64,000 nucleotides of DNA, taken from contig CP043652.1 of the NCBI GenBank assembly GCA_014218215.1, positions 4,526,001 to 4,590,000 of the forward strand. Direction: 5' to 3'. The notes beneath the pieces were generated by a model. It was not told the DNA's origin and did not search any database. It saw only the letters and a list, made by a program, of their open reading frames with translations. The stretch's first letter is position 1, and every line of letters begins with the position of its first letter. The DNA is from Geodermatophilaceae bacterium NBWT11. GTDB lineage: Bacteria; Actinomycetota; Actinomycetes; Mycobacteriales; Geodermatophilaceae. The translations under genes and the position numbers were made by a program. Below are positions 9,741-25,564 of the stretch, one piece after another.

Positions 9741-9766
9741 TTCGTGATGTCGAATGGTCCTTCGAA
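9741..9766 (-). promoter_or_regulatory. TCGAA-type operator, copy A (MFS operon)
   Basis: Read on the minus strand, this 26-nt site starts TTCGAAGGACC, continues ATTCGACATCA and ends CGAA. It shares TCGAA-N6-TTCGA arms and the third CGAA half-site with copies at 9858 and 25539 (19 of 26 and 17 of 26 identical). A plausible promoter lies upstream on the same strand: TTGTGT (9803-9798), 17 nt, TCTACT (9780-9775), with the operator beginning 8 nt beyond the -10. That position would block transcription of the MFS-dehydrogenase operon. Confidence 0.65.
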
Positions 9767-9819
9767 CTCCGACCAGTAGAACCCACCGAGACCTGGGACA
9801 CAAGGCGCCCCGCAGCGCC

Positions 9820-9849
9820 TTGACCGTGCCGAGTCCGGCTGCGTACCTT
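9820..9849 (+). promoter_or_regulatory. Sigma-A type promoter for the ligase operon
   Basis: TTGACC (9820-9825) and TACCTT (9844-9849) are spaced by 18 nt, close to the housekeeping consensus. The next 34 nt hold operator copy B, and the ligase start is 60 nt downstream of the -10. Confidence 0.55.
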
Positions 9850-9857
9850 TGCGAGAG

Positions 9858-9883
9858 CTCGAAGAGTCATTCGATTTCGCGAA
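9858..9883 (+). promoter_or_regulatory. TCGAA-type operator, copy B (ligase operon)
   Basis: The site reads CTCGAAGAGTCA, then TTCGATTTCG, then CGAA. It begins 8 nt after the -10 box, over the expected transcription start, as at copies A and C. It matches copy C at 22 of 26 positions. It probably binds the repressor of the island, for which the IclR protein encoded at 24708 is the leading candidate. Confidence 0.7.
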
Positions 9884-9909
9884 CACCACCACCGCCAGGA
9901 GGTCCCGGC

Positions 9910-11526
9910 ATGACGCCCGTCCCGACCGCGACCACGCTGCCCGAGCTCCTCCGAGTCACGGCGGCCGCCACCCCGGACGCGCCGGCCCTGGTCGCCGGGG
10001 ACACCCGCTGGACGTACGCCGAGCTCTCCGCCCAGGCGGACCTGGCCGCCGACGTGCTCGCCGGCCTCGGCGTCGGACCGGGGGACACGGTGGCGCTGCT
10101 GGCCCCCAACACCGCCTCCTGGGTCCCGATCGCCGTCGGCGCGATGACGCTGGGCGCCCGGGTCGACGCGTTCAACACCTGGGTCAAGGCCTACGACCTC
10201 CAGCACCTGCTGGCCAGCTCCGCGGCCTCGGTCCTGGTGCTGGCCGACCGGGTGCGCGGCAGCGACCTGCTGGGCGAGCTCGAGTCGCTGCTGCCCGAGC
10301 TGACCGGGTCCGCGGACGGCAGCTGGCACAGCGACCGGTTCCCGGCGCTGCGGCACGTGGTGGTGCTGGGCGACCGGGTGTCGGCCGGTGCGACGTCCTG
10401 GACGGCGCTCGCGGCCACGGCCACCCCGACGACGCGGGAGCCGGCCGCCCGGGGCGAGGACCCCGCCTTCGTGCTCTACACCTCCGGCTCCACCAGCCGC
10501 CCCAAGGCGGTCCCGCTCTGCCACCGCGACCTGGTGCTCAACGGCTTCCACATCGGCGAGCGGATGGGGGTCACCGCCGCGGACCGGGTCTGGTTCGGCT
10601 CGCCGCTGTTCTGGAGCTTCGGCTGCGCCAACGCCCTGATGAACGCCCTGAGCCACGGCGCCTGCTTCGTGCTGCAGGAGCAGTTCACCCCGCAGGACGC
10701 CGCCGGGCTGATGGCCGCCGAGCAGGTCACCGTGGCCTACCTGCTGCCCTCCATGGTCGACGCGCTGGTCGGGGCGGTCGCCCCGCAGGTGCGCGCCGTG
10801 GAGTCGCTGCGCACGGGGGCGACGATCGGCCGCCCCGAGGAGGTCCGCCGGGCCGTCGTCGACCTCGGCATCACCGGGATGTGCAACGTCTACGGGGCCA
10901 CCGAGACCTACGGCAACTGCTGCGTCACCGACCACCGCACCCCGCTGGAGGTGCGGGTGACCACCCAGGGCCGACCGCTGCCCGGCGTCGAGGTCCGGGT
11001 GGTCGGCGCGGACGGCGAGGTCCTCCCGGCCGGCGAGCCCGGGGAGATGCAGGTCCGCGGCCGGGTCACCCCCGGCTACCTCGGCGACGACGACGCGACC
11101 GCGGCCGCCTTCACCTCCGACGGCTGGTACCGCACCGGCGACCGGATGGTCGTCGACGACGAGGGCGTCGTCTCCTTCGTCGGCCGCACCACCGACATGA
11201 TCAAGACCTCCGGGATCAACGTGTCCCCCGCGGAGGTGGAGAGCTTCCTCGCCTCGCACCCCGACGTCGTGGAGGTGACCGTGCTGGGCGCCCCGCACCC
11301 CTCCCGCGACGAGGTGGTGGTGGCCTTCGTCGTCTCCCGCTCGGCGGACCTGACCGCGGCGGACCTCATCGCGTGGAGCAAGGACCGGGTCGCCGGCTAC
11401 AAGGTGCCCTGGGTGGCCGCGGTGGTCGACGAGCTCCCCCGCACCGGCACCGGGAAGCTCGCCCGGCGCACCCTGCAGCAGGACGCGGCCGACCTGGTGA
11501 CCGCCCGACTCGAGGAGACCGCGTGA
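9910..11526 (+). CDS. AMP-dependent acyl-CoA ligase
   Basis: A 538-residue ANL-superfamily enzyme that activates a carboxylic acid to acyl-AMP and then to the CoA thioester. The P-loop YTSGSTSRPKAV is near residues 190-201, the A5 motif YGATETYGN near 328, the hinge TGDRMVVDDEG near 410, and the C-terminal lysine motif GTGKLARR near 515. ATG 9910 has AGGAGG 6 nt upstream. It is the first gene of a six-gene operon and lies just downstream of operator B. It is a close relative of the split ligase at 20197 (both share an LFWS-G-ANAL segment), so the island has duplicated this step. The acid is unknown; aromatic or alicyclic is likely. Confidence 0.9.
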   Translation: MTPVPTATTLPELLRVTAAATPDAPALVAGDTRWTYAELSAQADLAADVLAGLGVGPGDTVALLAPNTASWVPIAVGAMTLGARVDAFNTWVKAYDLQHLLASSAASVLVLADRVRGSDLLGELESLLPELTGSADGSWHSDRFPALRHVVVLGDRVSAGATSWTALAATATPTTREPAARGEDPAFVLYTSGSTSRPKAVPLCHRDLVLNGFHIGERMGVTAADRVWFGSPLFWSFGCANALMNALSHGACFVLQEQFTPQDAAGLMAAEQVTVAYLLPSMVDALVGAVAPQVRAVESLRTGATIGRPEEVRRAVVDLGITGMCNVYGATETYGNCCVTDHRTPLEVRVTTQGRPLPGVEVRVVGADGEVLPAGEPGEMQVRGRVTPGYLGDDDATAAAFTSDGWYRTGDRMVVDDEGVVSFVGRTTDMIKTSGINVSPAEVESFLASHPDVVEVTVLGAPHPSRDEVVVAFVVSRSADLTAADLIAWSKDRVAGYKVPWVAAVVDELPRTGTGKLARRTLQQDAADLVTARLEETA

Positions 11527-12398
11527 CCGGCAACTGGGGACGCTGGGGTGCCGACGACGAGGTCGGTGCGCTCAACCTGGTCACCGCCGACGTCACCCGG
11601 CGCGCGGTGGGCCTCGTCCGGTCCGGACGCACGCTCTCCCTGGCGATGCCGCTGGGCCCGGGCACCCCCGGCCCCCCGCACCGGCACCGGCCCTCCCGCT
11701 TCATGGACCGGGACGCCGGCGACTACGCCCTGGGCGCCCGGACCCCCGGTGGCTTCCGCTTCGCCGAGGACACCGTGCAGTTCGCCACGCACAGCGGCAC
11801 CCACCTCGATGCGCTCTCGCACGCCTGGTCGGGCGAGGAGCTCTACAACGGCCACCCGCAGGCGGGCACCCGCAGCACCCGGGGGGCCGGTCGGCTGGGC
11901 GCGGAGAAGCTCGTCCCGGTGCTCACCCGCGGGGTGCTGGTCGACCTGGTGGCCGCCACCGGCGGGCCGCTGGCACCCAGCGCCCCGGTCGGCGTCGCCG
12001 ACCTGGAACGGGGCATAGCCGAGTCCGGGGTGACCCCCGAGCCCGGGGACGTCGTCCTGGTGCGCACCGGCTGGCTGGAGTCCCGCGGGGACGCCGCCGA
12101 CTACTTCGCCGACGAGCCCGGCATCACCGAGGACGCCGCCCGCTGGCTGGCCGAGCGGGACGTCGCCGTGGTCGGCGCGGACAACTACGCCGTCGAGCAG
12201 CAGTCGGCCACCGCCGGCTTCCCCGCCCACCTGGTGCTGCTGCACCAGCACGGGGTGCCGCTGCTGGAGAACGTGGTGCTGGCCGAGCTCGCGGCCGCCC
12301 TCGCCGCGCAGGACCGGTCCACCTTCCTGGTGGTGCTGGCCCCGCTGCCGCTGGTCGGGTCGACCGGTGCGCCGGTGACCCCGGTGGCCGTGCTGTGA
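11523..12398 (+). CDS. Cyclase family metal-dependent hydrolase
   Basis: A 291-residue cyclase/kynurenine formamidase-type protein with the complete metal motif HSGTHLDALSH near residues 85-95. It is shorter than, and only distantly similar to, the one at 1967, which lacks the first His; both begin with NWGRWGADD. GTG 11523 overlaps the ligase stop (GTGA), so the two are translationally coupled. Members hydrolyse amides, lactones or ring ketones through a bound metal ion. Following an acyl-CoA ligase and preceding a CoA transferase, it may open a ring or hydrolyse an intermediate. Confidence 0.83.
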   Translation: MTGNWGRWGADDEVGALNLVTADVTRRAVGLVRSGRTLSLAMPLGPGTPGPPHRHRPSRFMDRDAGDYALGARTPGGFRFAEDTVQFATHSGTHLDALSHAWSGEELYNGHPQAGTRSTRGAGRLGAEKLVPVLTRGVLVDLVAATGGPLAPSAPVGVADLERGIAESGVTPEPGDVVLVRTGWLESRGDAADYFADEPGITEDAARWLAERDVAVVGADNYAVEQQSATAGFPAHLVLLHQHGVPLLENVVLAELAAALAAQDRSTFLVVLAPLPLVGSTGAPVTPVAVL

Positions 12399-13608
12399 CC
12401 GCCGGCTGGATCACCGACGTCGTGCGCCCGGGTGACCTGGTCGTCGTCGCGCAGGGCTCGGGGGAGCCGACGCCGCTGCTGGAGCAGCTGGTGGACGCCG
12501 CGGCGTCGCTGACCGACGTCGAGGTGTTCGTCGGCCTGAGCCACTCCGGGGCGCTGCGCCGACCCGAGGCCGCCGGGTTGTCCCTGGTCTCCTTCGGCGC
12601 GATGGGCCCGCTGGCCCGGCTCGCCGCCGAGGGCCGGGTCGCCGTCCTGCCCTGCCACTTCTCCGACGTGCCCCGGCAGCTGACCCGGCGGGCCCCCGGC
12701 CGGGTGGTCGTCGTCGTGCAGGTCTCCCCCGCCGACGCCGACGGCCACCACTCCCTCGGCCTGGCCGTGGACCACACCTGGGAGCTGCTGGCCGGCGCCC
12801 GGGCCGTGGTGGCCGAGGTCAACGACCAGCTGCCGCACACCTCGGCCCCCCGGGTGCACGCCTCGCAGCTCACCGCCACGGTGCCCACCTCCCGCCCGCA
12901 GCCGCAGGTGACGGGCGGGACCCCGGGCGAGGTGCACCGGCAGATCGCCGCCCACGTCGCCGGCCTGGTGCCCGACGGCGCCACCCTGCAGCTGGGTGTC
13001 GGCGTCCTGCCGTCGGTGGTGGCCGCCGCGCTGCGCGGACGGCGCGGGCTGCGCGTGCGCTCCACCCTGGTCGGTGACTGGCTGTGCGAGCTGGCCGCCG
13101 CCGGAGCGCTGGCCACCGACCCCGACGCCGTCGTCATCAGCGAGGCCGCGGGCTCCCCCGGGCTCTACGAGCACGTCGCCACCGGCGGCGTGCGGATCGT
13201 CCCGGTCGGCGAGCTCAACCGGCCCGACGTGCTCGCCGGCACCCCGGGCTTCGTGGCGGTCAACGCCGCCCTGCAGGTCGACCTCACCGGCCAGGTCAAC
13301 GCCGAGGAGCTCGGCAGCGGCTACGTGGCCGGCATCGGCGGGCAGCCCGACTTCCTGCGCGCCGCCCAGCGCTCCACCGGCGGGCTGGCGGTCGTGATGC
13401 TGCGGCCACCGCCCGCTCGGGCCAGGAGTCCCGGATCGTCCGCCGGCTGCACGCCGGCGCGGTCACCACCCCCCGGTCCGGCGTCGACGTCGTCGTGACC
13501 GAGCACGGCACCGCCGACCTGCGCGGCCGCAGCCTGACCGAGCGCGCGCAGGCCCTGACGGCCATCGCCGCCCCCGACCACCGCGACGCCCTGGGAGGCC
13601 CCGCGTGA
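12395..13608 (+). pseudogene. Acetyl-CoA hydrolase/4-hydroxybutyrate CoA-transferase family, split by a 1-nt frameshift
   Basis: The first frame (GTG 12395, GTGA overlap with the cyclase gene) encodes a family I-type CoA transferase or acetyl-CoA hydrolase, with GDLVVVAQGSGEPTPLLEQL at the start and LGVGVLPSVVAAAL and GFVAVNAALQVDLTGQVNAE later. At about 13399-13405 the match leaves this frame and continues in another as ATARSGQESRIVRRLHAGAV and VDVVVTEHGTADLRGRSL, the conserved C-terminal part. Adding one C within CTGCGG restores about 404 residues in one frame. These enzymes move CoA between acids or hydrolyse acyl-CoA. The C-terminus overlaps the next gene by GTGA, so the original reading frame was operon-coupled; the break may be a sequencing error. 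Confidence 0.78.
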
Positions 13609-14627
13609 CGACCACCGTCACAGAGACCGCGACCGACGACGGCTCCACCATCCTCGAGCGGCTGACCCGCTTCCTCGCCACCCAGGAGGGCACCGCCGGC
13701 ACCCGGATCGCCGACCTCCGCCGGGCCGGTGCCGGACGCTCCCGGGAGAACTGGCTGTTCGACCTGGTCGGGCCCGGCCCCGACGACCGCGAGCCGCTGA
13801 TCCTGCGCAGCGACCCCGACGGCGGGCTGGTCGACACCAGCCGGGCCGTGGAGTTCGCCGTGCTGCGCGCCCTGGAGCCCAGCCCGCTGCCAACCCCGCG
13901 GGTGCGCTGGCTGGACGCCACCGGCGGGCAGCTGGGCAGCCCCTCGCTGCTCATGCGTCGCGAGCCCGGCACCTGCGACTACCGGGTGGTCAACGGCGAC
14001 CGCCCGCTGCCCGCGCGCCGGGCGCTGGCCGAGACGTTCTGCGACCTGCTCGCCGACGTGCACGCCACCGACTGGCGCGGGCTGGGCCTGACCGACGTGC
14101 TCACCGACCCCGGCGAGCAGGCCGCGCTGCACGAGCTGGACCACTGGGAGCAGGTGCTCCGGCACGACCAGCTCGAGGCCCACCCCGAGCTGGACCTGGC
14201 GATCGACTGGCTGCGGTCCCGGGCCCGGCCCTCGCGGCGCACCGTGCTGGTGCACGCGGACTTCAAGCCCGGCAACATCCTGCTCGAGGGCGACCGGGTC
14301 AGCTCGCTGCTGGACTGGGAGCTCGCGCACCTGGGCGACCCGCTGGAGGACCTCGGCTGGGTGACCCAGCCGCTGCGGGCCGGGGAGCACCTCATCGAGG
14401 GCAGCTGGACCGCCGCCGACCTGGTCGCCCGCTACACCGCGGCCACCGGCCTGGAGGTGGAGCCCGACGAGCTGCGCTGGTGGGTCGTGTTCTCCACCTT
14501 CAAGACCGCCGTGATGCAGGTCAGCGGGCTGCGCGCGTTCCTCGAGGGCCGCGCCGACGAGCCCTACCGGCCGACCCGCCGGGTGCTGTCCACCCTGCTG
14601 ACCGCCATCACCGGACCGAGGAGCTGA
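13605..14627 (+). CDS. Aminoglycoside phosphotransferase-fold kinase-like protein
   Basis: A 340-residue protein of the APH/choline kinase fold. The catalytic loop is HADFKPGN (HxDxxxxN), followed by LLDWELAHLGDPLEDLGW with the metal-binding Asp. The N-lobe has VDTSRAVEFAVLRAL. Such proteins occur next to acyl-CoA dehydrogenases and ligases in Actinobacteria and resemble the kinase-like domain of human ACAD10/11, which phosphorylates 4-hydroxyacyl-CoA substrates to allow dehydration. That role is attractive here but is an inference. GTG 13605 overlaps the preceding stop (GTGA). It is unlikely to be an antibiotic resistance gene given the context. Confidence 0.85.
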   Translation: MTTTVTETATDDGSTILERLTRFLATQEGTAGTRIADLRRAGAGRSRENWLFDLVGPGPDDREPLILRSDPDGGLVDTSRAVEFAVLRALEPSPLPTPRVRWLDATGGQLGSPSLLMRREPGTCDYRVVNGDRPLPARRALAETFCDLLADVHATDWRGLGLTDVLTDPGEQAALHELDHWEQVLRHDQLEAHPELDLAIDWLRSRARPSRRTVLVHADFKPGNILLEGDRVSSLLDWELAHLGDPLEDLGWVTQPLRAGEHLIEGSWTAADLVARYTAATGLEVEPDELRWWVVFSTFKTAVMQVSGLRAFLEGRADEPYRPTRRVLSTLLTAITGPRS

Positions 14628-14629
14628 CC

Positions 14630-15037
14630 GTGCACCCGACCATCGACGAGCAGCTGGGCGGCGCACTGCGCCTGCTGGACGTGCTGGAGACCGAGGACGA
14701 GCTGTCCACCGCGTCCCAGGAGGTGCTGGCCAACGTGCGCCGGCTGCTGGGCAAGGTGCAGCGCTCCTGGTCCGCGCAGCTGCCCTTCCACACCGCCGAC
14801 AACGCCGCGCTGACCGACCTGCTCGAGCGCACCGCCCCGCTGGTGGACCCCGCCCTGGTCCCGAGCGTGACCGCGGTCGAGCCGCTGGACGCCGTGGCCG
14901 TGGCCACCCGCAACAGCGAGCTGCGGGCCCTGCTGTCCCGGGTGGTCACCGGCCTCCCCCACTCCCCCGCCGGCGACGCCGCCCGTGCCGAGATCGGCGA
15001 CCACCTGCGCCACCGGGTCGACACCGACCCCACCTGA
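14630..15037 (+). CDS. Small hypothetical protein of the ligase operon
   Basis: A 135-residue, mostly helical protein that I do not recognise. GTG 14630 lies 2 nt after the kinase-like gene's stop, with GAGGAG about 5 nt upstream; the longer frame from 14480 overlaps that gene. It contains many Leu, Glu and Ala residues, no membrane segment and no Cys pairs. Small helical proteins of similar size are often coded beside APH-like kinases in catabolic operons and may be a subunit or binding partner. Its position between that gene and the AttH-like gene supports a pathway role. Confidence 0.6.
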   Translation: MHPTIDEQLGGALRLLDVLETEDELSTASQEVLANVRRLLGKVQRSWSAQLPFHTADNAALTDLLERTAPLVDPALVPSVTAVEPLDAVAVATRNSELRALLSRVVTGLPHSPAGDAARAEIGDHLRHRVDTDPT

Positions 15038-15052
15038 CGGAAGGCCTGACAC

Positions 15053-16180
15053 GTGACCGACCTGAGCATCGGCGACGACCACTTCGCCGAGCAGTTCCCG
15101 CTGTCCCCGATCGACGACTTCATGGTCCACCAGACGCCGGACCCGGTGCGGGTGTCCTGGACCGGCGACCCGCGGGCCTACGAGCGCTACTGGATGATCG
15201 CCCACGACGCGACCGGTGAGGTGATGGTCGCGACCGGGGGCAGCATCTACCCCAACCTCGACCGGGCCGAGGCGTACGCGATCGTCGTCCGCGGCGGGAG
15301 GCACACCGCCGTCCGCAGCTTCCGCCCCCTGGGCGTGGACCGGACCGACCTGCGGGTCGGCCCGATCGCCCCGGTGATCGTCCGCGGCCTGCGCGAGTGG
15401 CGGTACGTGCTGGAGCCCAACGACCAGGGCATCAGCTGGGACCTCACCTTCACCGACACCACCCGCCAGGTGTTCCGCGAGCCGCTGTCGGACTCCGCGC
15501 ACGGCACCCCGTCCGGACGACGCAACGACGTCACGGCCGGGTTCGAGGGCTTCGGCTCGGTGTCGGGCTGGGTCGAGGTCGACGGCGAGCGGGTCGAGCT
15601 CGGCGAGGGCTCGTTCGGCACCCGGGACCGGCACTGGGGCACCGGCCGCGGCGTCGGCGGCCCGACCATGTCGCTGGGGGGCCGGCTGCACGTGGGGGTC
15701 AACGGCAACGCCTTCGTGCCCTTCGCCGACTGGACGCTGTGGGGCGACCGGGTCTACTACCCGTTCGGCCACGCCACCCCGGGTGCCACCAAGGTGCTCA
15801 AGCCGACCCGCCGGCTGCGCTTCGACCCGGAGACCCAGGTCTTCGTCGAGGGCGTCGTGGACTACCGGCTGGTCACCGGGGAGACCCGGCAGCTGCACTA
15901 CGAGCGGATCGGCGAGCAGACGGCCTACCTGCGCTGCGGCATGTACGGCGGCACCCCCGACGGCGACATCCACCAGGGCTCCTACGACGGCCCGGCGATG
16001 ACCGAGGGCGAGTCCTACGACCTCACCGACCTGCGGCAGCGGATCGGGCTGCGCGGCCTGGACGAGCACCTGTGCCGGGTCACCTGCGACGGCGAGACGG
16101 TGCTCGGGGTCTACCAGACGATCGACCCGGTCGCCTTCGAGCAGTGCACCGCGGGCCGCCCGGGCTGGGCCTTCCTCTAG
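15053..16180 (+). CDS. AttH/CrtC-like (DUF7064-type) lipocalin-fold protein
   Basis: A 375-residue soluble protein made mainly of beta strands, with no signal peptide. Repeated Trp/Gly motifs (SGWVEVDGERVELGEGSFGTR; DRHWGTGRGVGG) resemble AttH/CrtC hydratase-like beta-barrel proteins and the DUF7064/7065 group that often sits beside APH-like kinases in mycobacterial and sphingomonad degradation clusters. GTG 15053 is 15 nt after the previous stop with GGAAGG upstream. No catalytic residues can be assigned. It may bind or hydrate a hydrophobic intermediate. The family name is a judgement from sequence style, not a database result. It is the last gene of the operon and overlaps the convergent monooxygenase by 4 nt. 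Confidence 0.6.
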   Translation: MTDLSIGDDHFAEQFPLSPIDDFMVHQTPDPVRVSWTGDPRAYERYWMIAHDATGEVMVATGGSIYPNLDRAEAYAIVVRGGRHTAVRSFRPLGVDRTDLRVGPIAPVIVRGLREWRYVLEPNDQGISWDLTFTDTTRQVFREPLSDSAHGTPSGRRNDVTAGFEGFGSVSGWVEVDGERVELGEGSFGTRDRHWGTGRGVGGPTMSLGGRLHVGVNGNAFVPFADWTLWGDRVYYPFGHATPGATKVLKPTRRLRFDPETQVFVEGVVDYRLVTGETRQLHYERIGEQTAYLRCGMYGGTPDGDIHQGSYDGPAMTEGESYDLTDLRQRIGLRGLDEHLCRVTCDGETVLGVYQTIDPVAFEQCTAGRPGWAFL

Positions 16181-17475
16181 ACCCCGACGCCGCGGCGCTC
16201 CGCCGCCGCGGCGACCTCGGCCCGCAGCTGCAACTGGTAGTCCTTGGGCGGCAGGTCCAGGGCGGCCCGCATCGTGTCCGGGCGGGCCGCCCCGGCGTGG
16301 TGCTCGGCGGCGAGCTCGGCGTGCATCGCGTCCCTCCCGGGCAGGTCGATCTCGCCGTCGACGAGAGCGGCCAGCCAGCGGCACTGCCAGTCCATCATCC
16401 GGATGTTGCCCCCGCCGTTGACGTCGAAGAGACCGACGAAGGCCAGCCCCGGGTGGTCCGGGTGCACGATGCGCCGGTGCAGCCGCACCTGGTCGGGGGT
16501 GACCGGGCGCAGCTCCGGGGCCAGGAACGGCAGGTCCACCGTGTACCCGGTGGCGGCGACGAGGACGTCGAACTCCGCCGAGGTGCCGTCGGCGAAGTGC
16601 ACCTCGCGGCCGCTGACGCCGGTCACCCCGGGCTTCACCGCCACCCGACCCCAGCTGATGTGGCTGAACAGCGTGGGGTGGCTGGAGGGGTGCGCCTCCT
16701 CGGTGGGGGTGACGAAGCCGGCGTCCTCCATCCGGCCGTGCACCGCCCGGGTCAGCTGCTCGCGGAGCCTGCGGCGCATCGGCCAGGTCATCCAGGGCTT
16801 CTCGACCTTGGCCAGCACCCGGGAGAAGGGCACCCCGAACATCATCCGGGGCATGACCAGCACCGGGGAGCGGGCCGAGAGCACGGTGGAGGCGGTGACG
16901 GCGCAGACGTCGGCGGCGATGTCCAGGCCGCTGTTCCCGGCCCCGACGACCAGCACGTCCCGGTCGGTGAACTCCTCGGGCGACCGGTAGGAGAACGCGT
17001 GCCGGTACTCACCGGTGAAGTCGGCCGCGAACGGCGGGTGCAGCGGCTCGGCCTGGTGGCCGTTGGCCACGACGACACGGTCGAAGGCGACGGGCTGCTC
17101 GCCGTCCACGGTGACCTCGAAGCCCGACCCGACCGGCTCCACCGCCGTCACCCGGCTGTGGAACCGGATGTGCTCGCGCAGCCCGAACTCCTCGGCGTAG
17201 GCCTCCAGGTAGGCCCGGACGGCGGTGTGCGACGGGTAGAGCCCGGCCTCCGCCGGGATCGGGAAGTCGCGGTAGCCGGTCACCCGGGCCTCGGAGTTCA
17301 GGTGCAGCGAGCGGTAGGCGGGGCTGCGGCCGCTGTCGTTGCCGTAGACCCACAGCCCGCCCACGTGCGAGCCCAGCTCGAAGACCGTCACCCGGTGCCC
17401 GCGGGCCAGCAGGTGCTTGGCGGCACCCAGCCCGGCCGCGCCGGCTCCCACGACAGCGATCTCCTGGGCGCTCAC
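16177..17475 (-). CDS. Flavin-containing monooxygenase
   Basis: A 432-residue FAD/NADPH monooxygenase. The FAD site is GAGAAG (residues 10-15), followed by ELGSHVGGLWVYGND; the NADPH site is VVGAGNSGLDIA; and ATGYTVDLPFL near the C-terminus is the FMO ATGY motif. Such enzymes oxygenate N, S or carbonyl groups. GTG 17475 overlaps the stop of the upstream Baeyer-Villiger gene (GTGA). It is a clear paralogue of the protein encoded at 26755 (both contain GLWVY-N-). It may act in sequence with the Baeyer-Villiger enzyme on a ketone. Confidence 0.88.
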   Translation of the reverse strand: MSAQEIAVVGAGAAGLGAAKHLLARGHRVTVFELGSHVGGLWVYGNDSGRSPAYRSLHLNSEARVTGYRDFPIPAEAGLYPSHTAVRAYLEAYAEEFGLREHIRFHSRVTAVEPVGSGFEVTVDGEQPVAFDRVVVANGHQAEPLHPPFAADFTGEYRHAFSYRSPEEFTDRDVLVVGAGNSGLDIAADVCAVTASTVLSARSPVLVMPRMMFGVPFSRVLAKVEKPWMTWPMRRRLREQLTRAVHGRMEDAGFVTPTEEAHPSSHPTLFSHISWGRVAVKPGVTGVSGREVHFADGTSAEFDVLVAATGYTVDLPFLAPELRPVTPDQVRLHRRIVHPDHPGLAFVGLFDVNGGGNIRMMDWQCRWLAALVDGEIDLPGRDAMHAELAAEHHAGAARPDTMRAALDLPPKDYQLQLRAEVAAAAERRGVGV

Positions 17476-19400
17476 GCCGGCACCCGGGCCGGGGTGGTCA
17501 CGTACTCGGCCAGGTCGGCGTGCCGCAGCCGGTGCCAGAAGTCCACGACGGTGAACGGGTTGTTGACCACCACCCGGCCGCGGGAGTTGCGGTAGTAGAC
17601 GTCCATCCCGGGGTGGGTCCACACCATCCGGTCGTGGGCGGCGTCGACGTCGTCGTTGTAGGCGTCGTGCACGTCCTGCCGGCACTCCACCGCGCCGATC
17701 CCCTGCTCCACCACCTGGCGGAGCAGGTCGGCCACGTAGTGCAGCTGGAGCTCGATCATGAACAGCAGGCTCCCGCCGTGGCCGAACTGCAGGTTCGGCC
17801 CGTAGAGGGTGAAGAAGTTGGGGAACCCGGGCACCGTGGAGCCCAGGTAGGCGCGCGGGTCGTCCCCGGCCCACTCGTCGTGCAGCACCCGGCCGTCCCG
17901 GCCGGTCACCCGCATCGGGGCCAGGAACCGGACGACGTCGAACCCGGTGGCCAGCACCACCACGTCGACCTCGTGCTCCTCGCCGGCCTCGGTCACCACG
18001 GCGTCCGGGGTGAGCCGGGCGACCCGGTCGGTGACCAGCTCGACGTCGTCCCGGGTCATCGTGGCGAACCAGCCGTTGTCCAGCAGCATCCGCTTGCCGA
18101 ACGGCGGGTAGGTGGGCAGCACGGCCGGCAGCAGGTCCTGCCGGTCACCGAGCTGCTCGACGATGTAGCGGGTGAAGGCGCGCCGGTGGCCGTCGTTGGC
18201 CGCGCTGATCGACCGCTCGGGGTGCTCCCACGCCGGGTCCTTCTGCAGGGCGCCGTGGATCCGGTCGTTGAAGGTCCAGCCCAGACGCAGCCGGTACCAG
18301 GTCTCGTAGAGCGGCACCTCGCGGTAGAGCCAGTGGACGGCGGGCGGCACGTCCTGGTGGAACTGCTCGAAGGGCGCGGCCCACTGCGGCGAGCGCTGGA
18401 AGACCGTGACCGTGCGGGCCCGGTCGGCGATCGCCGGCACCAGCTGCATGGCGCTGGCACCGTTGCCGAGCACGGCGACCCGCTGGTCGGTGAGGTCGAG
18501 GTCCTCGGGCCAGCGGGCGGTGTGCGCGACCGGCCCGCGGAAGTCGGCCAGGCCGGCGATGTCGGGCACCTTCGGCTTGTTGAACGCGCCGACCGCGCTG
18601 ATCAGCACCGAGCAGCGCAGCGTCTGCTCGCCCTCCGCGGTGCGCGCGGTGATCTCCCACTCCTGGGCGTCGTCGTCCCAGGTGGCGGCGGTGACCTCGA
18701 CCCCGAACCGGGTGTTCGCCCGGACGCCGAAGTCGTCGGCGACCCGATCGAAGTAGTCGCGGATCTCGTGCTGGGCGGCGAACCAGCGGGACCAGTCGTT
18801 CGGGGCGAAGGAGAAGGAGTACAGGTGGCTGGGGGTGTCCACCCCGGCACCCGGGTAGCGGTTCTCGTGCCACACGCCGCCGACGTCGTGGTTGCGCTCG
18901 AGCACGGTGTACGGGATGCCGGCCCGGCCCAGGTGCACCCCGGCGCAGAGCCCGGAGGCGCCGGCTCCGATCACCACCGCCCGGAACCCCGGTGCCGGAG
19001 GCGTGGCCGCCGGGGGCGCGTCGTCCAGGCCCAGCTCGTGGGCCAGCATGTCGGCGTAGTCCAGCGGCACCGGCTCGCCCATGGAGGCCCCGAGCATCTG
19101 CACCAGCAGCTCGGCGGAGGGCTCGGGGACCGCCACCGGGGTCCCGGCCCGCCACGCTGCGACGGCCTGCACCGCGGCGGCCCGGACCTCGTCCTGCACC
19201 GCCTCGTCCAGACCGCCGGTCGGGTTGTCCCCCAGCCCCCGGCTCCGGGTCGGCCGGTAGGGCTCCTCCAGCCAGCGCAGGTCACCGGTCAGCTGGACCA
19301 GGACCAGCAGCAGCGTCGGGATGTTGCCGACGGCGACCGCTGCCTCGAGCGCTGCCCGGTCGGCGTCCTGGTCGGTGGGGTCCTGCTCGTCCTGGGGCAC
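17472..19400 (-). CDS. Baeyer-Villiger monooxygenase, 4-hydroxyacetophenone monooxygenase-like
   Basis: A 642-residue FAD/NADPH enzyme. The FAD site GAGASG is at 145-150, the Baeyer-Villiger fingerprint FxGxxxHTxxWP is complete as FRGPVAHTARWP (287-298), and the NADPH site GNGASA is at 312-317. About 135 residues precede the first Rossmann motif; this extension is typical of 4-hydroxyacetophenone monooxygenase (about 640 residues). The enzyme inserts oxygen next to a ketone carbonyl to give an ester or lactone. ATG 19400 lies close to the TetR operator at 19426. It implies that an aryl or cyclic ketone is an intermediate of this island. Ester or lactone hydrolysis may be done by the cyclase-family or alpha/beta hydrolase genes. 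Confidence 0.9.
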   Translation of the reverse strand: MPQDEQDPTDQDADRAALEAAVAVGNIPTLLLVLVQLTGDLRWLEEPYRPTRSRGLGDNPTGGLDEAVQDEVRAAAVQAVAAWRAGTPVAVPEPSAELLVQMLGASMGEPVPLDYADMLAHELGLDDAPPAATPPAPGFRAVVIGAGASGLCAGVHLGRAGIPYTVLERNHDVGGVWHENRYPGAGVDTPSHLYSFSFAPNDWSRWFAAQHEIRDYFDRVADDFGVRANTRFGVEVTAATWDDDAQEWEITARTAEGEQTLRCSVLISAVGAFNKPKVPDIAGLADFRGPVAHTARWPEDLDLTDQRVAVLGNGASAMQLVPAIADRARTVTVFQRSPQWAAPFEQFHQDVPPAVHWLYREVPLYETWYRLRLGWTFNDRIHGALQKDPAWEHPERSISAANDGHRRAFTRYIVEQLGDRQDLLPAVLPTYPPFGKRMLLDNGWFATMTRDDVELVTDRVARLTPDAVVTEAGEEHEVDVVVLATGFDVVRFLAPMRVTGRDGRVLHDEWAGDDPRAYLGSTVPGFPNFFTLYGPNLQFGHGGSLLFMIELQLHYVADLLRQVVEQGIGAVECRQDVHDAYNDDVDAAHDRMVWTHPGMDVYYRNSRGRVVVNNPFTVVDFWHRLRHADLAEYVTTPARVPA

Positions 19401-19425
19401 CGTTGCTCCTCGACCTCGAGTTCAC

Positions 19426-19443
19426 CTACTGGTCGTTCAGTAG
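19426..19443. promoter_or_regulatory. TetR-type operator in the divergent promoter
   Basis: A perfect palindrome, CTACTG-gtcgtt-CAGTAG, lies between the Baeyer-Villiger gene (start 19400) and the TetR gene (start 19464). It overlaps the -35 position of the TetR promoter (predicted -10 TAGGGT, 19452-19457). TetR proteins next to divergent genes commonly bind such sites, so this is probably the autoregulatory site that also controls the two monooxygenases. Confidence 0.7.
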
Positions 19444-19463
19444 ATCGACGGTAGGGTCCGAGG

Positions 19464-20111
19464 GTGACGGTGGTCAACCCGGGCCGCCGAGCACAGCGGG
19501 AGGCCCCGGTGCCGGACACCCCCACCGCGCGCCGTCGGCAGGCCGCGGCCACCGAGGACGCGTTCATCGCCGCGGCGACCGCGCTGTTCGCCCGGCGCGG
19601 CTACCACGGCACCTCGATCGCCGACCTCGCCGCCGAGCTGGGGCTGACCACGGCGAGCCTCTACTACCACGTGGCCTCCAAGCAGGAGCTCCTGATGCGG
19701 GTGCTCACCAACGGCATCACGCCCTACCTGGACCGGCTCGAGGCGATCGTGGCGGCCGGTGAGGACCCGCGCACCACGCTGCGCGCCGCGGTGCACAACC
19801 ACCTCTCCTCGGCCCTGCACGACCAGGACGCCGTCGCCGTCTTCCACCGCGAGCGGCGCTTCCTGGAGGCACCGCACCGCGAGCTGCACGAGCAGCGGGT
19901 GGCCCGCTACGACCAGTTGTTCACCGGTGTGATCGCCGCCGTGCTGGCCGAGGGGGACGTCCCGGGCGACCCCGACCTGCTCCGGCTGGCCGCGCTCGGG
20001 CTGATGAACTGGACGGTCGAGTGGTACGAGCCCGGCGGCCGGCGCAGCGCCGACGAGGTGCTGGAGACCTTCACCGGGCTGATCACCGACCGGCTGCTCG
20101 GGCCGGCTTGA
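19464..20111 (+). CDS. TetR-family transcriptional regulator
   Basis: A 215-residue regulator. The helix-turn-helix is visible as FARRGYHGTSIADLAAELGL, followed by TTASLYYHVASKQEL, with the ligand-binding helical domain after it. GTG 19464 lies 6 nt after a TAGGGT -10 box, the spacing of a leaderless transcript; GTG 19509 with GGGAGG upstream is an alternative start. It is divergent from the Baeyer-Villiger and FMO genes and upstream of a ligase-CaiB pair, so it likely represses the ketone-oxidation arm until an effector, perhaps an acyl-CoA, binds. Confidence 0.88.
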   Translation: MTVVNPGRRAQREAPVPDTPTARRRQAAATEDAFIAAATALFARRGYHGTSIADLAAELGLTTASLYYHVASKQELLMRVLTNGITPYLDRLEAIVAAGEDPRTTLRAAVHNHLSSALHDQDAVAVFHRERRFLEAPHRELHEQRVARYDQLFTGVIAAVLAEGDVPGDPDLLRLAALGLMNWTVEWYEPGGRRSADEVLETFTGLITDRLLGPA

Positions 20112-20136
20112 CGCCGTCCCCGGGGCTGGTGCAGGG

Positions 20137-20171
20137 TTCGACGAGCTGCAGGTGGATTCGAAGTCTCGAAG
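20137..20171 (+). promoter_or_regulatory. Weak cluster of TCGAA half-sites before the second ligase operon
   Basis: TTCGA (20137-20141), TTCGAA (20157-20162) and TCTCGAAG (20164-20171) precede the ligase start at 20197. The half-sites match the island operator, but the arm spacing differs (the TTCGAA and TCGAAG units are closer together). It may be a degenerate fourth copy or a chance match. Confidence 0.3.
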
Positions 20172-20196
20172 CAGTGCACCTGAGTCAGGAGGCCCG

Positions 20197-21818
20197 ATGA
20201 CCCGCCCCAGCACCCTCCCCGCCGTCCTGTCCGCGCACGCCTCCGCCGACCCGTCCGCGGTGGCGCTGGTCGACGACGCCGGCCCGCTGTCCCGCGGCGA
20301 GCTCGCCGGCCGGGTGCGGCGCTGCGCTGCCGGGCTGCGTCGGGCCGGGGTGCGACCGGGCGGCACCGTCGGGCTGCTGTGCACCAACCGGGCCGAGTGG
20401 GTGGTCGCCGCCCTCGGTGCGATGGCCGCCGGCGCGCAGGTCGCGGCGTTCACCACCTGGTCGCGCAGCTGGGACCTCGACCACCTGCTCGAGCACTCCG
20501 GTTGCCAGGTGCTGATCAGCGTCGGCACGGTCGGGGACACCGACCTGCTGCCGGTGCTCACCGAGCTGGTCCCGGAGGCCCTCGCCGCCCCCGACCGCAG
20601 CTGGGTCTCGGCCCGCTACCCCCGGCTGCGCGCGCTCGTGCTGATCGGCGACGCCCCGGACCCGCCTGGAGTCACCCCCTTCGCCGAGCTGCTGGCCGAC
20701 GACGACGGGGCCGACAGCGCTGCCGACCCCACCGCCACCGCCCTGGTGCTCTACACGTCGGGCTCCACCGCGCGGCCCAAGGCGGTGCAGCTGCGGCACG
20801 ACCACGCCGTGGCGCACGCCGAGCAGGTCGCCGGGCGGATGGGCGTCACCGCGGCCGACCGGGTGCTGGTGCCGGTGCCGCTGTTCTGGAGCTACGGCGG
20901 CGCCAACGCCCTCGCCGTCTGCCTCACCACCGTGCGACCGCGGTGCTGCAGGAGACCTTCGACGCCGGCCGGGCGCTGACCGCCGTGCACGAAGAACGCT
21001 GCACCGCGGTCTACACCCTCCCCAACATCACCCAGGCGCTGCTCGAGCACCCCGACTTCTCCCCCGACCGGGTCGCCACGCTGCGCCGCGGGATGACCAT
21101 CGGGCCGGTGCGCGACGTCCGGGCGGCGGCGGAGGACCTCGGCGTCACCGACGTCGTCAACGCCTACGGGTCGACCGAGGTGTACGGCGGGGCCGCGGTG
21201 ACGCCGTACGACTGGCCGCTGGAGCGCCGGCTGGCCTCCCAGGGCCTGCCGCTGCCCGGCATGACCGTGACCGTCCGCGACCCCGCGACCGGGGACCTGC
21301 TGCCCGTCGGGGAGATCGGTGAGCTGACCGTCGCCGGGCACGTCACCACCGGCTACCTCGGCCAGCCCGAGGCCACCGCGGCCGCCTTCGCCGACGACGG
21401 CGCGTTCCGGACCGGCGACCTGGGGTTCCTCGACGAGGACGGCGAGCTGCACTTCGTCGGCCGGGCCTCGGACATGATCCGGATCGGCGGCATCAACGTC
21501 TCCCCGCTGGAGGTGGAGGAGTTCCTGGGCCTGCACGAGGACGTCGCGGAGGTGCTGGTGGTCGGCACCGAGGACCCCGGGCGCGGGCAGGTCGCGATCG
21601 CCTTCGTCGCCGCGGTCGGCACACCGGACGACGCCGCCCGGCGGGGACTGGAGGAGGAGCTGCTGACCCGCTGCCGCGACCGGCTGGCGGGGTACAAGGT
21701 GCCCGCCCGGATCGTGGTGGGCACCGACGAGCTGCCGCGCACCCCCACCGGCAAGCTGACCCGCTCGCCGCTGGCCGATGCGGCGGCGCGCGCCTGGGCC
21801 GCAGGCGGCGCGGCGTGA
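20197..21818 (+). pseudogene. AMP-dependent acyl-CoA ligase, split by a 1-nt frameshift
   Basis: The first frame (ATG 20197, AGGAGG 4 nt upstream) encodes the N-terminal half of an ANL ligase with the P-loop YTSGSTARPKAVQL near residue 186. The match continues in a second frame after about 20929-20934 as ATAVLQETFDAGRAL, with YGSTEVYGG and the C-terminal TPTGKLTR. Restoring one G in CACCGTGCG gives a continuous protein of about 540 residues. It is a close paralogue of the ligase at 9910. It overlaps the CaiB gene by GTGA. The indel may be a sequencing error rather than decay. Confidence 0.78.
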
Positions 21819-22981
21819 CTCGACGTTCGGGACCCCTGGCGGGCACGCGCGTGGTCGAGTTCGCCGGGCTCGGCCCGGCCCCGTTCGCGGCCATGCTGCT
21901 GGCCGACCTCGGCGCCGACGTGGTCACCGTCGACCGGGTCCCCACCGGCGGCGCCGGCGACGGCCTGGCCGCGATGACCACCGGGGCGCTGGGCCGCGGC
22001 CGGCGCTCGATCGCGGTGAACACGAAGGACCCGGCCGGCCGGGAGCTGGTGCTCGACCTCGTCGCCGGGGCCGACGCGCTGATCGAGGGCTTCCGCCCCG
22101 GGGTGATGGAGCGCCTCGGGCTGGGGCCGGAGCCGTGCCTGGCCCGTCGTCCCTCGCTGGTCTACGGCCGGATGACCGGCTGGGGCCAGGAGGGTCCACT
22201 GGCGATGTCCGCCGGCCACGACGTCAACTACATCGCCGTCGCCGGGGTGCTCGAGCACATCGGGCACGCCGACGGCCCGCCCGTCGTCCCGCTCAACGTC
22301 ATCGGCGACTTCGGCGGCGGCGGGATGCTGCTGGCCCTCGGCGTGCTCGCCGCGATGCTCGAGGCACGCGGCTCCGGCCGGGGCCAGGTGGTGGACGCCG
22401 CCATGGTCGACGGCTCCGCCCTGCTCATGACGATGATGTACGAGCTCGCCGGGCGGGGGCAGTGGAACGGCGCCCGGCAGTCGAACATGAACGACGGCGG
22501 CGCCCACTTCTACGGCGTCTACGAGACCGCCGACGGCAAGCACGTGTCGATCGCGGCGATGGAGCCGAAGTTCTACGCCGTGCTGCTGGACCTGATCGGG
22601 CTCTCGGCCGCCGACCTGCCCGACCAGTGGGACACCGCCGCCTGGCCCGCTCTGCGGGAGCGGCTGGCCGCGGTGTTCCGCACCCGCACCCGGCAGGAGT
22701 GGACCGACCTGCTGGAGGGCACCGACGCCTGCTTCGCCCCGGTCCTGTCGATGTCGGAGGCGCCGTCCCACCCGCACGCCGTGGCCCGGGACGCCTTCGT
22801 CACCGTCGACGGCACGGTGCAGCCCGCTCCCGCGCCCCGGTTCAGCCGCACCCCGGCCGCCGTCGACCGCGGCACCGCCCGGGCCGGGGAGCACACCACC
22901 GAGGTGCTCACCGAGCTGGGCGTCTCCGCGGAGCGGATCGCCGCCCTGGTCGCCGGCGGGTCGGTCGGTCAGGCGGACTGA
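21815..22981 (+). CDS. CaiB/BaiF family III CoA transferase
   Basis: A 388-residue class III CoA transferase. The N-terminal FAGLGPAPFAAMLLADLGADVV is the family's CoA-binding opening, and the catalytic Asp aligns with D199 in VVDAAMVDGSAL. GTG 21815 overlaps the ligase stop (GTGA), so the two are coupled. In alpha-methylacyl-CoA racemase relatives the same fold epimerises acyl-CoA instead. The motif LADLGADVVTVDRV resembles racemases (Amacr: LADFGADVIRVDR) more than transferases, so 2-methylacyl-CoA racemase activity is a serious alternative. It overlaps the convergent ligase by 13 nt. Confidence 0.83.
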   Translation: MTRRSGPLAGTRVVEFAGLGPAPFAAMLLADLGADVVTVDRVPTGGAGDGLAAMTTGALGRGRRSIAVNTKDPAGRELVLDLVAGADALIEGFRPGVMERLGLGPEPCLARRPSLVYGRMTGWGQEGPLAMSAGHDVNYIAVAGVLEHIGHADGPPVVPLNVIGDFGGGGMLLALGVLAAMLEARGSGRGQVVDAAMVDGSALLMTMMYELAGRGQWNGARQSNMNDGGAHFYGVYETADGKHVSIAAMEPKFYAVLLDLIGLSAADLPDQWDTAAWPALRERLAAVFRTRTRQEWTDLLEGTDACFAPVLSMSEAPSHPHAVARDAFVTVDGTVQPAPAPRFSRTPAAVDRGTARAGEHTTEVLTELGVSAERIAALVAGGSVGQAD

Positions 22982-24579
22982 GCGGCCAGCTCGCGCAGCC
23001 GGAAGCGCTGCACCTTGCCGGTGGGCGTCGTCGGCCAGCTGTCCGGGAACCGGATCTCCCGGGGCACCTTGAACCCGGCGAGCCGGTCCCGGCAGTGCGC
23101 GAGCAGGTCCGCCGGCGTCGTGGTGCTGCCGGCGCGGCACTCCACGAACGCGACCGGCACCTCCCCGAGCCGGGCGTCCGGCCGGGCCACCACGTGGGCC
23201 TGCACCACGTCGGGATGGGCGGTGAGCACGTGCTCGACGTCGGCGGGGTGCACGTTGAAGCCACCGACGATGAGCATGTCCGAGAGCCGGCCGGTGATCG
23301 CCAGGTAGCCCCGCTCGTCGAACACCCCCAGGTCGCCGGTGCGGAACCAGCCCTCGTCGTCCAGCACCGCGGCGGTGGCGTCGGGGTCGCGGTGGTAGCC
23401 CGCCATGACGACGTAGCCCCGGACGACGATCTCGCCCTCGGTGCCCACCGGCACCGGCTCGCGAGTGGCCGGGTCGACCAGCACCACGTCGTACCCGCCC
23501 AGCGGGAGGCCCTTGCCGGCGAGCAGGCTCTCGACCGGGTCGTCGGGGCGGCCCAGCGTCGTGGTCGAGGTCAGCTCGGTCATCCCGTAGACCGGGAGCA
23601 GCGCCTGCATGCCGAGGGTGTCCCGGGCCCCGGCAAGCACCTCGGTGGGCAGCGTCGAGCCGCCGATCCAGCCGGTGCGCAGCCGGGTGGTGTCGGTGCC
23701 GGGCAGGTCGGGGTGGTGCAGCAGGTCGATGAAGTGCGTGGGGATGCCGGAGAGCACCGTGACCCCCTCGTCCTCCAGCAGCCGCAGGGCGACCCCGGCG
23801 TCCCAGGTGTCCAGGGCGACGTAGGCGCCGCCGGTGAGCACGGTGGGCAGGAAGCTGGAGAACAGCCCGGAGACGTGGAACAGCGGCAGGTGGCCGAGCA
23901 CGACGTCGTCCGGGCCGTACCCCATGACCGCGCCGACCGCCCGCATCATCGCCACGGCCGCGTGGGTGTGCACCACGCCCTTGGGCCGGCCGGTGGTGCC
24001 CGAGGTGTAGACGACGGCGACCGGGTCGGCGGGCTGCACCGCCCGGGTCGCGGCGGCCAGGGTCTCCTCGTCCACCTGCCCGGCGGAGGCGACCAGGTCC
24101 GCGAACGCCAGCGCCCCGGGCACCGGCGGGCCGCCGACCACGACCAGCCCGTGCAGGTCGGGCAGCCGCTCGGAGTGGGCGCCGTCCCAGTCGGGGCAGA
24201 TCGTGGCGAACGCGGCCGGGTGGTCCAGGCCGAGGAAGTCGGCCTCCACCACGAGCAGCCGGGCCTGCGACTGCTCCAGCACGTAGGCAGCCTCGTCGGG
24301 GGTGTAGCGGGTGTTCACCGGGACGACGGCCGCACCGATCCGCACCGCGGCGAGCCAGAGCAGCAGCCACTCGGGGTGGTTGGGCAGCCAGAGCGCGATG
24401 CTGTCTCCCCGACGCACGCCCTGGGCCAGCAGCGCCCGGGCCAGGGTGCGGCTCTGCTCCGCGGTCTCCGCCCAGGTCAGCCGCCGGTCGCCGTGCACCA
24501 CCGCGGTGCGCTCTCCGTGGGCGGCGGCGGTCGTGTCGAGGACGGCGGCGATCAGCTCGGCGGGGGGTGCAGGGGTCAC
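22969..24579 (-). CDS. AMP-dependent acyl-CoA ligase (fatty acid-type)
   Basis: A 536-residue ANL ligase with P-loop YTSGTTGRPKGVVHTH near 188, VYGMTELTS near 330, TGDLGVFDERG near 425 and C-terminal PTGKVQRF. It resembles medium or long-chain or cyclohexanecarboxylate-type CoA ligases (FadD/AliA-like). GTG 24579 follows GGGAGGCG with 6-8 nt spacing; the longer frame to 24720 would cross the IclR promoter region. It is divergent from the IclR gene, so it is a likely direct target of that regulator. Confidence 0.88.
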   Translation of the reverse strand: MTPAPPAELIAAVLDTTAAAHGERTAVVHGDRRLTWAETAEQSRTLARALLAQGVRRGDSIALWLPNHPEWLLLWLAAVRIGAAVVPVNTRYTPDEAAYVLEQSQARLLVVEADFLGLDHPAAFATICPDWDGAHSERLPDLHGLVVVGGPPVPGALAFADLVASAGQVDEETLAAATRAVQPADPVAVVYTSGTTGRPKGVVHTHAAVAMMRAVGAVMGYGPDDVVLGHLPLFHVSGLFSSFLPTVLTGGAYVALDTWDAGVALRLLEDEGVTVLSGIPTHFIDLLHHPDLPGTDTTRLRTGWIGGSTLPTEVLAGARDTLGMQALLPVYGMTELTSTTTLGRPDDPVESLLAGKGLPLGGYDVVLVDPATREPVPVGTEGEIVVRGYVVMAGYHRDPDATAAVLDDEGWFRTGDLGVFDERGYLAITGRLSDMLIVGGFNVHPADVEHVLTAHPDVVQAHVVARPDARLGEVPVAFVECRAGSTTTPADLLAHCRDRLAGFKVPREIRFPDSWPTTPTGKVQRFRLRELAAQSA

Positions 24580-24596
24580 GTCGTCGCCTCCCGGGC

Positions 24597-24610
24597 TTCG
24601 GTTTCCCGAA
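24597..24610. promoter_or_regulatory. Palindrome in the IclR/ligase divergent gap
   Basis: TTCGG-tttc-CCGAA is a perfect inverted repeat 17-30 nt upstream of the ligase start and about 100 nt upstream of the IclR start. It shares the TTCG/CGAA ends of the island operator but has a different spacing. It may be the autoregulatory IclR site. Confidence 0.4.
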
Positions 24611-24707
24611 CCTACACCGGGAGAACCGGGAGGGAACCGCCCCTCGAACGGGTCGGTCGGGGACCGGTCGCGCCCGTGTCGACCGCGCCGTCGGCGAGGA
24701 TGGGCCG

Positions 24708-25478
24708 GTGACCGGAGCAACCGGAGAGTCCAAGGACCGCCTGTCCCGCATCTTCGAGGTGCTCGAGCTGCTGGCCGGGGAGTCCGGCGGGATGACCGTG
24801 ACCCAGGTCAGCAAGGCGATGGGCATGCCGCTGAGCAGCACGCACAACCTGCTGCAGCGCCTGGTCGGGTCCGACGCCGCCGTGGTGAGCGAGGACCTGC
24901 GCTACTCCATCGGCGGTCGGGCCGTGCGCTACGGCATCCGCATCATGGACGCGCTGCAGGTCCGCGGCCTGGCCCGCAAGCACCTGCAGGAGCTGGCCCG
25001 CTCGCTCGGGGAGGACGTCTACCTGGCGGAGCGGTTCGGCAACCGGGTCACCTACACCGACCGGGTGGTCGGTCCCCGCGCGATGGCACTGGACATCCGG
25101 CTGGGCCAGCGACTGTTCCTGCACGCGACGTCGGTGGGCAAGCTGTTCGCCGCGCTGGACCCCGAGCTGCGCGCCGAGGCCCTGGCCGGGCCGCTCCCCC
25201 AGCTGACCCCGGCCACGCTGGTCGACCCGGACGCCCTGGCCACCGAGTTCGACCGCATCGCCGCCCAGGGCTACGCGGTCAGCGACCAGGAGTCCTACGC
25301 CGGGATCGTCGGCATCGCGGTGCCGGTGCGCGACGCCGGTGACCGGGTGGTGGCCGCCATCCACCTGTCCGCACTGGAGGCGCACCGCTCCCCCGACCAG
25401 CAGCTGGCCTGGCTGGAGCACATCCGGGAGACGGCGGCCCAGGTCGAGCGGTCGCTGGGCCGCGTGGTCCCGGACTGA
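24708..25478 (+). CDS. IclR-family transcriptional regulator (candidate island repressor)
   Basis: A 256-residue IclR regulator. Residues 5-65 form the winged helix-turn-helix (RIFEVLELLAGESGGMTVTQ, then MGMPLSSTHNLLQRL). The C-terminal effector domain follows with GQRLFLHATSVGKLFAAL and the segment GYAVSDQESYAGIVGIAVPV. GTG 24708 follows GGCGAGGA. It lies between a divergent ligase gene and the promoter of the 25.6-32.7 kb operon. Its central place makes it the best candidate to bind the TCGAA-type operators, because IclR proteins bind short palindromes and respond to aromatic acids or acyl-CoA. TetR (19464) is the competing candidate. Confidence 0.88.
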   Translation: MTGATGESKDRLSRIFEVLELLAGESGGMTVTQVSKAMGMPLSSTHNLLQRLVGSDAAVVSEDLRYSIGGRAVRYGIRIMDALQVRGLARKHLQELARSLGEDVYLAERFGNRVTYTDRVVGPRAMALDIRLGQRLFLHATSVGKLFAALDPELRAEALAGPLPQLTPATLVDPDALATEFDRIAAQGYAVSDQESYAGIVGIAVPVRDAGDRVVAAIHLSALEAHRSPDQQLAWLEHIRETAAQVERSLGRVVPD

Positions 25479-25504
25479 CCGACCCGCGGGGGCCGGGCTG
25501 TGCC

Positions 25505-25533
25505 TTGACACACACCCCGACCACTCGTAGCTT
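25505..25533 (+). promoter_or_regulatory. Sigma-A type promoter of the ACAD operon
   Basis: TTGACA (25505-25510) and TAGCTT (25528-25533) are exactly 17 nt apart, the strongest promoter match in the island. The operator copy C starts 5 nt later. Confidence 0.65.
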
Positions 25534-25538
25534 CGTTT

Positions 25539-25564
25539 CTCGAAGAGCCCTTCGATTATGCGAA
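25539..25564 (+). promoter_or_regulatory. TCGAA-type operator, copy C (ACAD operon)
   Basis: The site reads CTCGAAGAGCCC, then TTCGATTATG, then CGAA. It covers the expected start of transcription. Upstream, CTTCG-TTTCT-CGAAG (25531-25545) forms another small palindrome that overlaps both the promoter and the operator. It matches copy B at 22 of 26 positions. Confidence 0.7.

Follow-up and report, generated by a model that had tools for sequence, protein, structure and literature searches.

We analysed a stretch of 64,000 nucleotides (nt) from Geodermatophilaceae bacterium NBWT11, hereafter the window (contig CP043652.1; C1:4526001-4590000 of a genome of 4,594,226 bases, called G000 here). It carries a catabolic island in which three copies of a 26-bp site, called A, B and C, stand in front of three different operons. 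Judging from sequence comparisons, we consider with good confidence that the protein acting at these sites is the IclR-family regulator encoded at 24708-25478, which would repress over the start of transcription until a compound of the pathway releases it. The regulon predicted in this way looks new, with a mechanism of a known kind.

Three-box sites over the expected transcription start

The sites, their promoters and the regulator are the following:

9741..9766, minus strand: operator A, three boxes, before the MFS-dehydrogenase operon; exact match, same place in 4/4 Klenkia genomes with the cluster
9775..9803, minus strand: promoter A, -35 TTGTGT at 9798-9803, 17-nt spacer, -10 TCTACT at 9775-9780; read from sequence
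9858..9883, plus strand: operator B, three boxes, before the ligase-cyclase-CoA transferase-kinase operon; exact match, place kept in 4/4 Klenkia genomes
9820..9849, plus strand: promoter B, -35 TTGACC at 9820-9825, 18-nt spacer, -10 TACCTT at 9844-9849; read from sequence, TTGACC in four Klenkia genomes
25539..25564, plus strand: operator C, three boxes, before the acyl-CoA dehydrogenase operon; exact match, kept in G081
25505..25533, plus strand: promoter C, -35 TTGACA at 25505-25510, 17-nt spacer, -10 TAGCTT at 25528-25533; read from sequence, kept in G081
24708..25478, plus strand: IclR-family regulator, proposed repressor (PF01614 2.9e-34, PF09339 3.4e-11)

Each site is an exact match to TCGAA-N6-TTCGA-N5-CGAA, with boxes every 10 bp in alternating direction (CGAA forward, TTCG reverse, CGAA forward). 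Written in their own orientation, A is TCGAAGGACCATTCGACATCACGAA, B is TCGAAGAGTCATTCGATTTCGCGAA and C is TCGAAGAGCCCTTCGATTATGCGAA; all three read TCGAA-G-N4-(A/C)-TTCGA. The gap from the -10 box to the operator is 8 nt for A, 8 nt for B and 5 nt for C. An initial annotation, made from the letters of the window, had described three such sites with TCGAA-N6-TTCGA arms and a third CGAA, beginning 5 to 8 nt after a -10 box (TCTACT, TACCTT, TAGCTT) and identical to each other at 17 to 22 of 26 positions. The sequence check confirmed coordinates, strands, arms and -10 boxes, pairwise identities of the 26-mers were 19, 17 and 22 of 26, and the -35 boxes were found in addition. The gene content that it gave for the three operons agrees with our family searches, and its proposal that one operator joins them is backed by the genome-wide specificity and the positional conservation computed here and described below.

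Specificity and chance

In the 4.59-Mb genome the exact three-box pattern occurs at three places, A, B and C only. A sequence model built from ten Klenkia sites also reports these three alone (E <= 1; 150 of 1110 first-look candidates scored). The specificity of the motif comes from the third box: the arms alone (TCGAA-N6-TTCGA) are found at 9 places in the genome, of which the six others read TCGAA(C/A)-N4-GTTCGA.

These six places resemble LexA boxes, and A, B and C could themselves be read as sites of the SOS repressor, actinobacterial LexA boxes having the same palindromic TCGAA...TTCGA arms with equal spacing. The consensus for Streptomyces venezuelae is tCGAAC-N4-GNNCGa (PMC9380542). The sites of the window lack the C and G beside the arms, none containing the core CGAAC-N4-GNNCG; they possess a third box, and they precede different genes, namely catabolic operons. 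We therefore rejected the LexA reading, which is scarcely credible.

A first-order Markov model predicts about 0.001 exact matches per genome. This is too optimistic, since a scan of 394 genomes of the order finds the pattern in 30 (397 were used in the order-wide IclR search, and the two sets may differ slightly), which places the chance rate nearer 0.05-0.1 per genome. A lone exact match in a genome consequently proves nothing. Twenty-five of these 30 genomes fall outside the group of six in which IclR is matched at 1e-50, and for 13 of those 25 the match begins TCGAAC, as LexA boxes do. Three exact sites within one 16-kb island, all at the same promoter place, are far beyond this chance rate. 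A chance origin was rejected on the counts in the own genome, on the order-wide rate of the pattern and on the matrix controls given below.

Near-identical three-box sites starting TCGAATT were also observed in four genomes of one other genus (G166, G295, G310, G373); they are perhaps the operator of another IclR protein.

Conservation in Klenkia

Among 112 genomes of the family, six contain the exact operator: four Klenkia genomes (G000, G076, G078, G081), and G037 and G107, where the matches have LexA-like TCGAAC-N4-GTTCGA arms. The search for the IclR protein, made in 108 genomes of the family, returned a close ortholog (85-100% identity) in the same four Klenkia genomes; four further genomes reach 1e-30, with 35-39% identity. 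Five other genomes of the genus in those lists had neither an IclR match at 1e-30 nor an exact operator. The related-locus scan gave three loci, all in Klenkia, and the class-wide IclR search at 1e-60 returned the own genome only (1/394).

Operators A and B are found at the same position throughout the four Klenkia genomes; in B, two mismatches are present in G076 and a single one in G078. Operator C is kept in G081. Conservation in sister genomes, the lack of which had been named as a refutation, is observed. The -10 box of promoter A is identical in the four genomes, and its -35 box is TTGTGT or TTGTGC.

The cluster is compact in G076 and G078, where an alcohol dehydrogenase (ADH)-MFS pair is divergent from ligase, cyclase, CoA transferase, kinase, a 135-aa protein, an Rv3169 family protein, CaiB and IclR. 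Every gene from ADH through IclR matches a gene of the window, and IclR is the sole regulator among them. The stretches compared (32.0 kb in G076, 29.9 kb in G078) contain no match at 1e-15 to the window's TetR, FMO or acyl-CoA dehydrogenase proteins.

Sites near IclR genes outside the family

At 1e-50 the IclR protein is present in six genomes of the order (6/397), of which three lie outside the family: G133 (61% identity), G189 (51-53%) and G149 (42%). A matrix made from the Klenkia sites was run on the stretches around their IclR genes (L058, L060 and L062, respectively), with Markov sequences (n=200) and column-permuted matrices (n=500) as controls. It finds what appear to be clear operators in the IclR regions of two of these genomes and a weak one in the third. 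The best matches are all intergenic: L058:12205 in G133 scores 34.4 and lies ~6.5 kb from IclR, L060:17601 in G189 scores 26.9 and lies between ligB and IclR, and L062:19302 in G149 scores 25.8 and lies before ligB. Random sequence reaching such scores at the same rate had been named at the outset as a possible refutation; the best score was reached in 0/200 and 0/500 controls for both G133 and G189, and in 2/200 and 1/500 for G149. With the ten-site model, E-values in the three genomes are marginal (0.5-1).

The idea that the operator marks a pathway is best supported by an exact operator of G189, C9:75299, since it repeats the architecture on another contig, unlinked to the cluster. An FMO-type gene has its likely start 18 nt further on, and a promoter TTGACC-17-TACACT precedes the operator with an 8-nt gap. 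The product of this gene is 38% identical to FMO2 of the window over 476 residues.

The 34.4 site of G133 belongs to a different neighbourhood. Here, L058:7542-12194 encodes a TPP enzyme, a Rieske protein and two amidohydrolases, with a divergent ABC importer; this set perhaps represents different targets of the same regulator.

Which regulator binds the sites

The protein encoded at 24708 is a member of the IclR family, with HTH_IclR (PF09339) and IclR_C (PF01614) both above cut-off. Its recognition helix, PLSSTHNLLQRLV, is identical in G000, G076, G078 and G133, and reads PLSSSHNLLQRMV in G189 and PISSTHDLLRTLV in G149. The sites correspond exactly to the architecture of three-box IclR operators, with alternating boxes forming one pair of each of two groups (see below). 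The link to this regulator, drawn without database searches in the initial annotation, is supported by these two features, by the co-occurrence of protein and operator, and by the presence of sites in five genomes without a close TetR; it is probable.

A second regulator gene of the island was the other obvious candidate:

19464..20111, plus strand: TetR-family regulator (PF00440, PF17932)

Its place inside the island, between operons, would suit a TetR operator. However, among six other genomes searched a close ortholog (96%) is found only in G081. The TetR matches listed in G076, G078, G133, G189 and G149 are 27-37% identical and the operators are still there, weakly in G149. Three boxes in 10-bp steps moreover suit IclR proteins. 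Binding by the TetR protein was therefore rejected as highly improbable.

Several observations weigh against the assignment to the 24708 protein and against a uniform regulon. The co-occurrence of IclR ortholog and operator is in part a given, since the cluster itself contains the sites. A sigma-70-like gene stands beside ADH in G076, just outside the compact cluster, and the model has a third, partial match elsewhere in that genome (C7:75337). The G149 site must be considered weak, since controls reached its score; the only model match of G149, C2:436742, differs from the cluster site, and its exact pattern match, taken as chance, lies inside a reading frame with an apparent ATP-binding motif. 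The second match of G133 (20.2, beside IclR at 19605) is within the Markov null, whose largest value is 21.9, and a 20.2 match of G189 (L060:5199) lies inside a TIM-barrel gene. The 34.4 site of G133 precedes the TPP enzyme-Rieske-amidohydrolase operon, which is absent from the family searches of the window, so that regulon content differs there; upstream of the G133 ortholog of the acyl-CoA dehydrogenase (75%) the matches are weak (13.4 and 10.8), and still the top two in 10.3 kb.

Likewise, G078 has two more IclR-family genes ~2-7 kb from the cluster (L047:3500-4258 and L051:9264-9959), and the own genome yields 25 first-look IclR candidates; one of these paralogs, encoded elsewhere, might be the actual binder. 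This is quite unlikely: no other protein of the own genome reaches 1e-30 to the 24708 protein, the linked IclR accompanies the operator across genomes, and the more distant family IclR proteins of G084, G088 and G095 carry a different recognition helix, PLSTIHRLVRTLV.

A last point of this kind concerns the sign of control. IclR-family proteins can activate or repress, and PcaU, the closest described case, with three boxes, is mainly an activator. Activation from A, B and C is nonetheless unlikely in our estimation: the sites begin 5-8 nt after the -10 box and cover the position where transcription should start, which suits a block, and the promoters possess -35 boxes of their own. Repression by the 24708 protein is the reading we retain below.

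Proposed mechanism and relation to known systems

The computation shows the sites with the geometry of their promoters, their specificity and their conservation; IclR binding, repression instead of activation, effector and substrate are what we infer in the following scheme. The protein, as dimer or tetramer, would bind the three boxes, which should face about one side of the helix since they are spaced 10 bp apart. Assuming a start at the usual 7 nt after the -10 box, the operator would span roughly -1/+3 to +25/+28, and bound IclR would block initiation because the operator covers the start. A pathway compound would bind the C-terminal IclR domain and lift repression, permitting uptake by the MFS transporter, oxidation and CoA activation by dehydrogenase and ligase, and a beta-oxidation-like branch that includes the FMO-type monooxygenase. 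If this is correct, the island would offer a clear actinobacterial case of three-box IclR control exerted at the expected transcription start.

The best NCBIfam match of the regulator (residues 12-249) is to PcaR/PcaU/PobR (TIGR02431), with 122.5 bits; since the cut-off is 284.75, it is not a member by this model. Three-box IclR operators with boxes of alternating direction have been predicted for 32 ortholog groups, with PcaU, PobR and HmgR cited (Suvorova and Gelfand 2021, PMC8222616). The boxes were compared by eye with the consensuses of that paper: boxes 1-2 (CGAA-N6-TTCG) fit its group 2 and boxes 2-3 (TTCG-N6-CGAA) its group 1. As in the systems described there, the predicted targets are catabolic and transport genes; unlike them, the targets annotated here include no beta-ketoadipate gene and the sites lie over the expected start. 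Our literature search found no paper joining Geodermatophilaceae and IclR, and none in which four or more of five pathway terms came together; this regulon may already figure among the ortholog groups of PMC8222616.

Genes of the cluster

7306..8334, minus strand: zinc-type ADH (PF00107, PF08240); start codon may be 8322
8331..9707, minus strand: MFS transporter, metabolite/H+ symporter like (PF00083; TIGR00883 361.9 bits, below the cut-off of 443.45)
9910..11526, plus strand: acyl-CoA ligase, ligB (PF00501 1.3e-69)
11523..12398, plus strand: cyclase family protein (PF04199 6.2e-26)
12395..13498, plus strand: acetyl-CoA hydrolase/transferase-like CoA transferase (PF13336; TIGR03948 104 bits, below cut-off)
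13605..14627, plus strand: APH-fold kinase (PF01636 5e-31)
14630..15037, plus strand: small conserved protein of 135 aa; orthologs of 82-95% in three other Klenkia genomes, 44% in L060 and L062
15053..16180, plus strand: Rv3169 family protein (NF053593 303.9 bits, cut-off 150); orthologs in L046, L047, L048, L060 and L062
25598..32709, plus strand: operon after operator C, with acyl-CoA dehydrogenase, FMO-type monooxygenase, thiolase-like, DUF35, nitronate monooxygenase-like, enoyl-CoA hydratase and CaiB genes (family searches)

These genes suggest import, alcohol oxidation, CoA activation, kinase-assisted handling of a hydroxyacyl-CoA, FMO-type oxidation and beta-oxidation-like steps. Among the 13 PDB sequences matched by the kinase are the kinase region of ACAD11 and 3ats and, more weakly, drug kinases. 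Family searches with the 135-aa protein gave no match above cut-off; its orthologs stand behind the kinase in L046, L047, L048, L060 and L062. The PDB entry 3ats is presumably Rv3168, and the kinase-small protein-Rv3169 family group (13605-16180) may mirror the mycobacterial Rv3168-Rv3169 pair.

A broader picture can be drawn tentatively. The operator would mark a regulon shared across families (Klenkia and at least two other families) and serving an undescribed catabolic pathway with ligase, cyclase, CoA transferase, ACAD11-like kinase and Rv3169-family protein. FMO-type monooxygenases would have joined by gaining the operator, next to the cluster in Klenkia and away from it in G189, and the island of the window would have grown from a compact one-regulator cluster, as in G076 and G078, to several transcription units. 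The regulon predicted for the window already brings about 20 unassigned genes under one candidate regulator and a defined operator and makes them testable as a unit, so that growth and expression tests could search for the substrate.

A second acyl-CoA ligase, at 20152-21818, is spread over two frames, the N-terminal part of PF00501 being in one and the remainder in another, with a switch near 20928. Gene breakage, a sequencing error or frameshifting could each account for this; the contig of G081 stops before the position matching the switch (~20928).

Candidate two-box sites

The core TTCG-N6-CGAA occurs at five places in the window, all intergenic: A, B, C and two candidate sites named D and E.

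20157..20170, no strand assigned: candidate two-box site D (TTCG-N6-CGAA), in the gap that separates the TetR gene from the ligase at ~20197; weak; at the same place in G081 (L048:11766) two boxes with a different spacer
24597..24610, no strand assigned: candidate two-box site E, in the divergent region between a ligase (24579, minus strand) and IclR (24708, plus strand); weak; identical in G081 (L049:78)

The two-box pattern is present at 50 places in the own genome, or ~0.7 per 64 kb (the Markov expectation of 0.18 per window is too low), and D and E are for this reason without significance alone. Two-box matches are also found inside genes of the relatives, for example in ligB of L046, L047 and L048. 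D and E are candidate members of the regulon; if they are real, the second ligase-CaiB unit and the divergent IclR/ligase promoter would join it, and the regulator would control its own gene.

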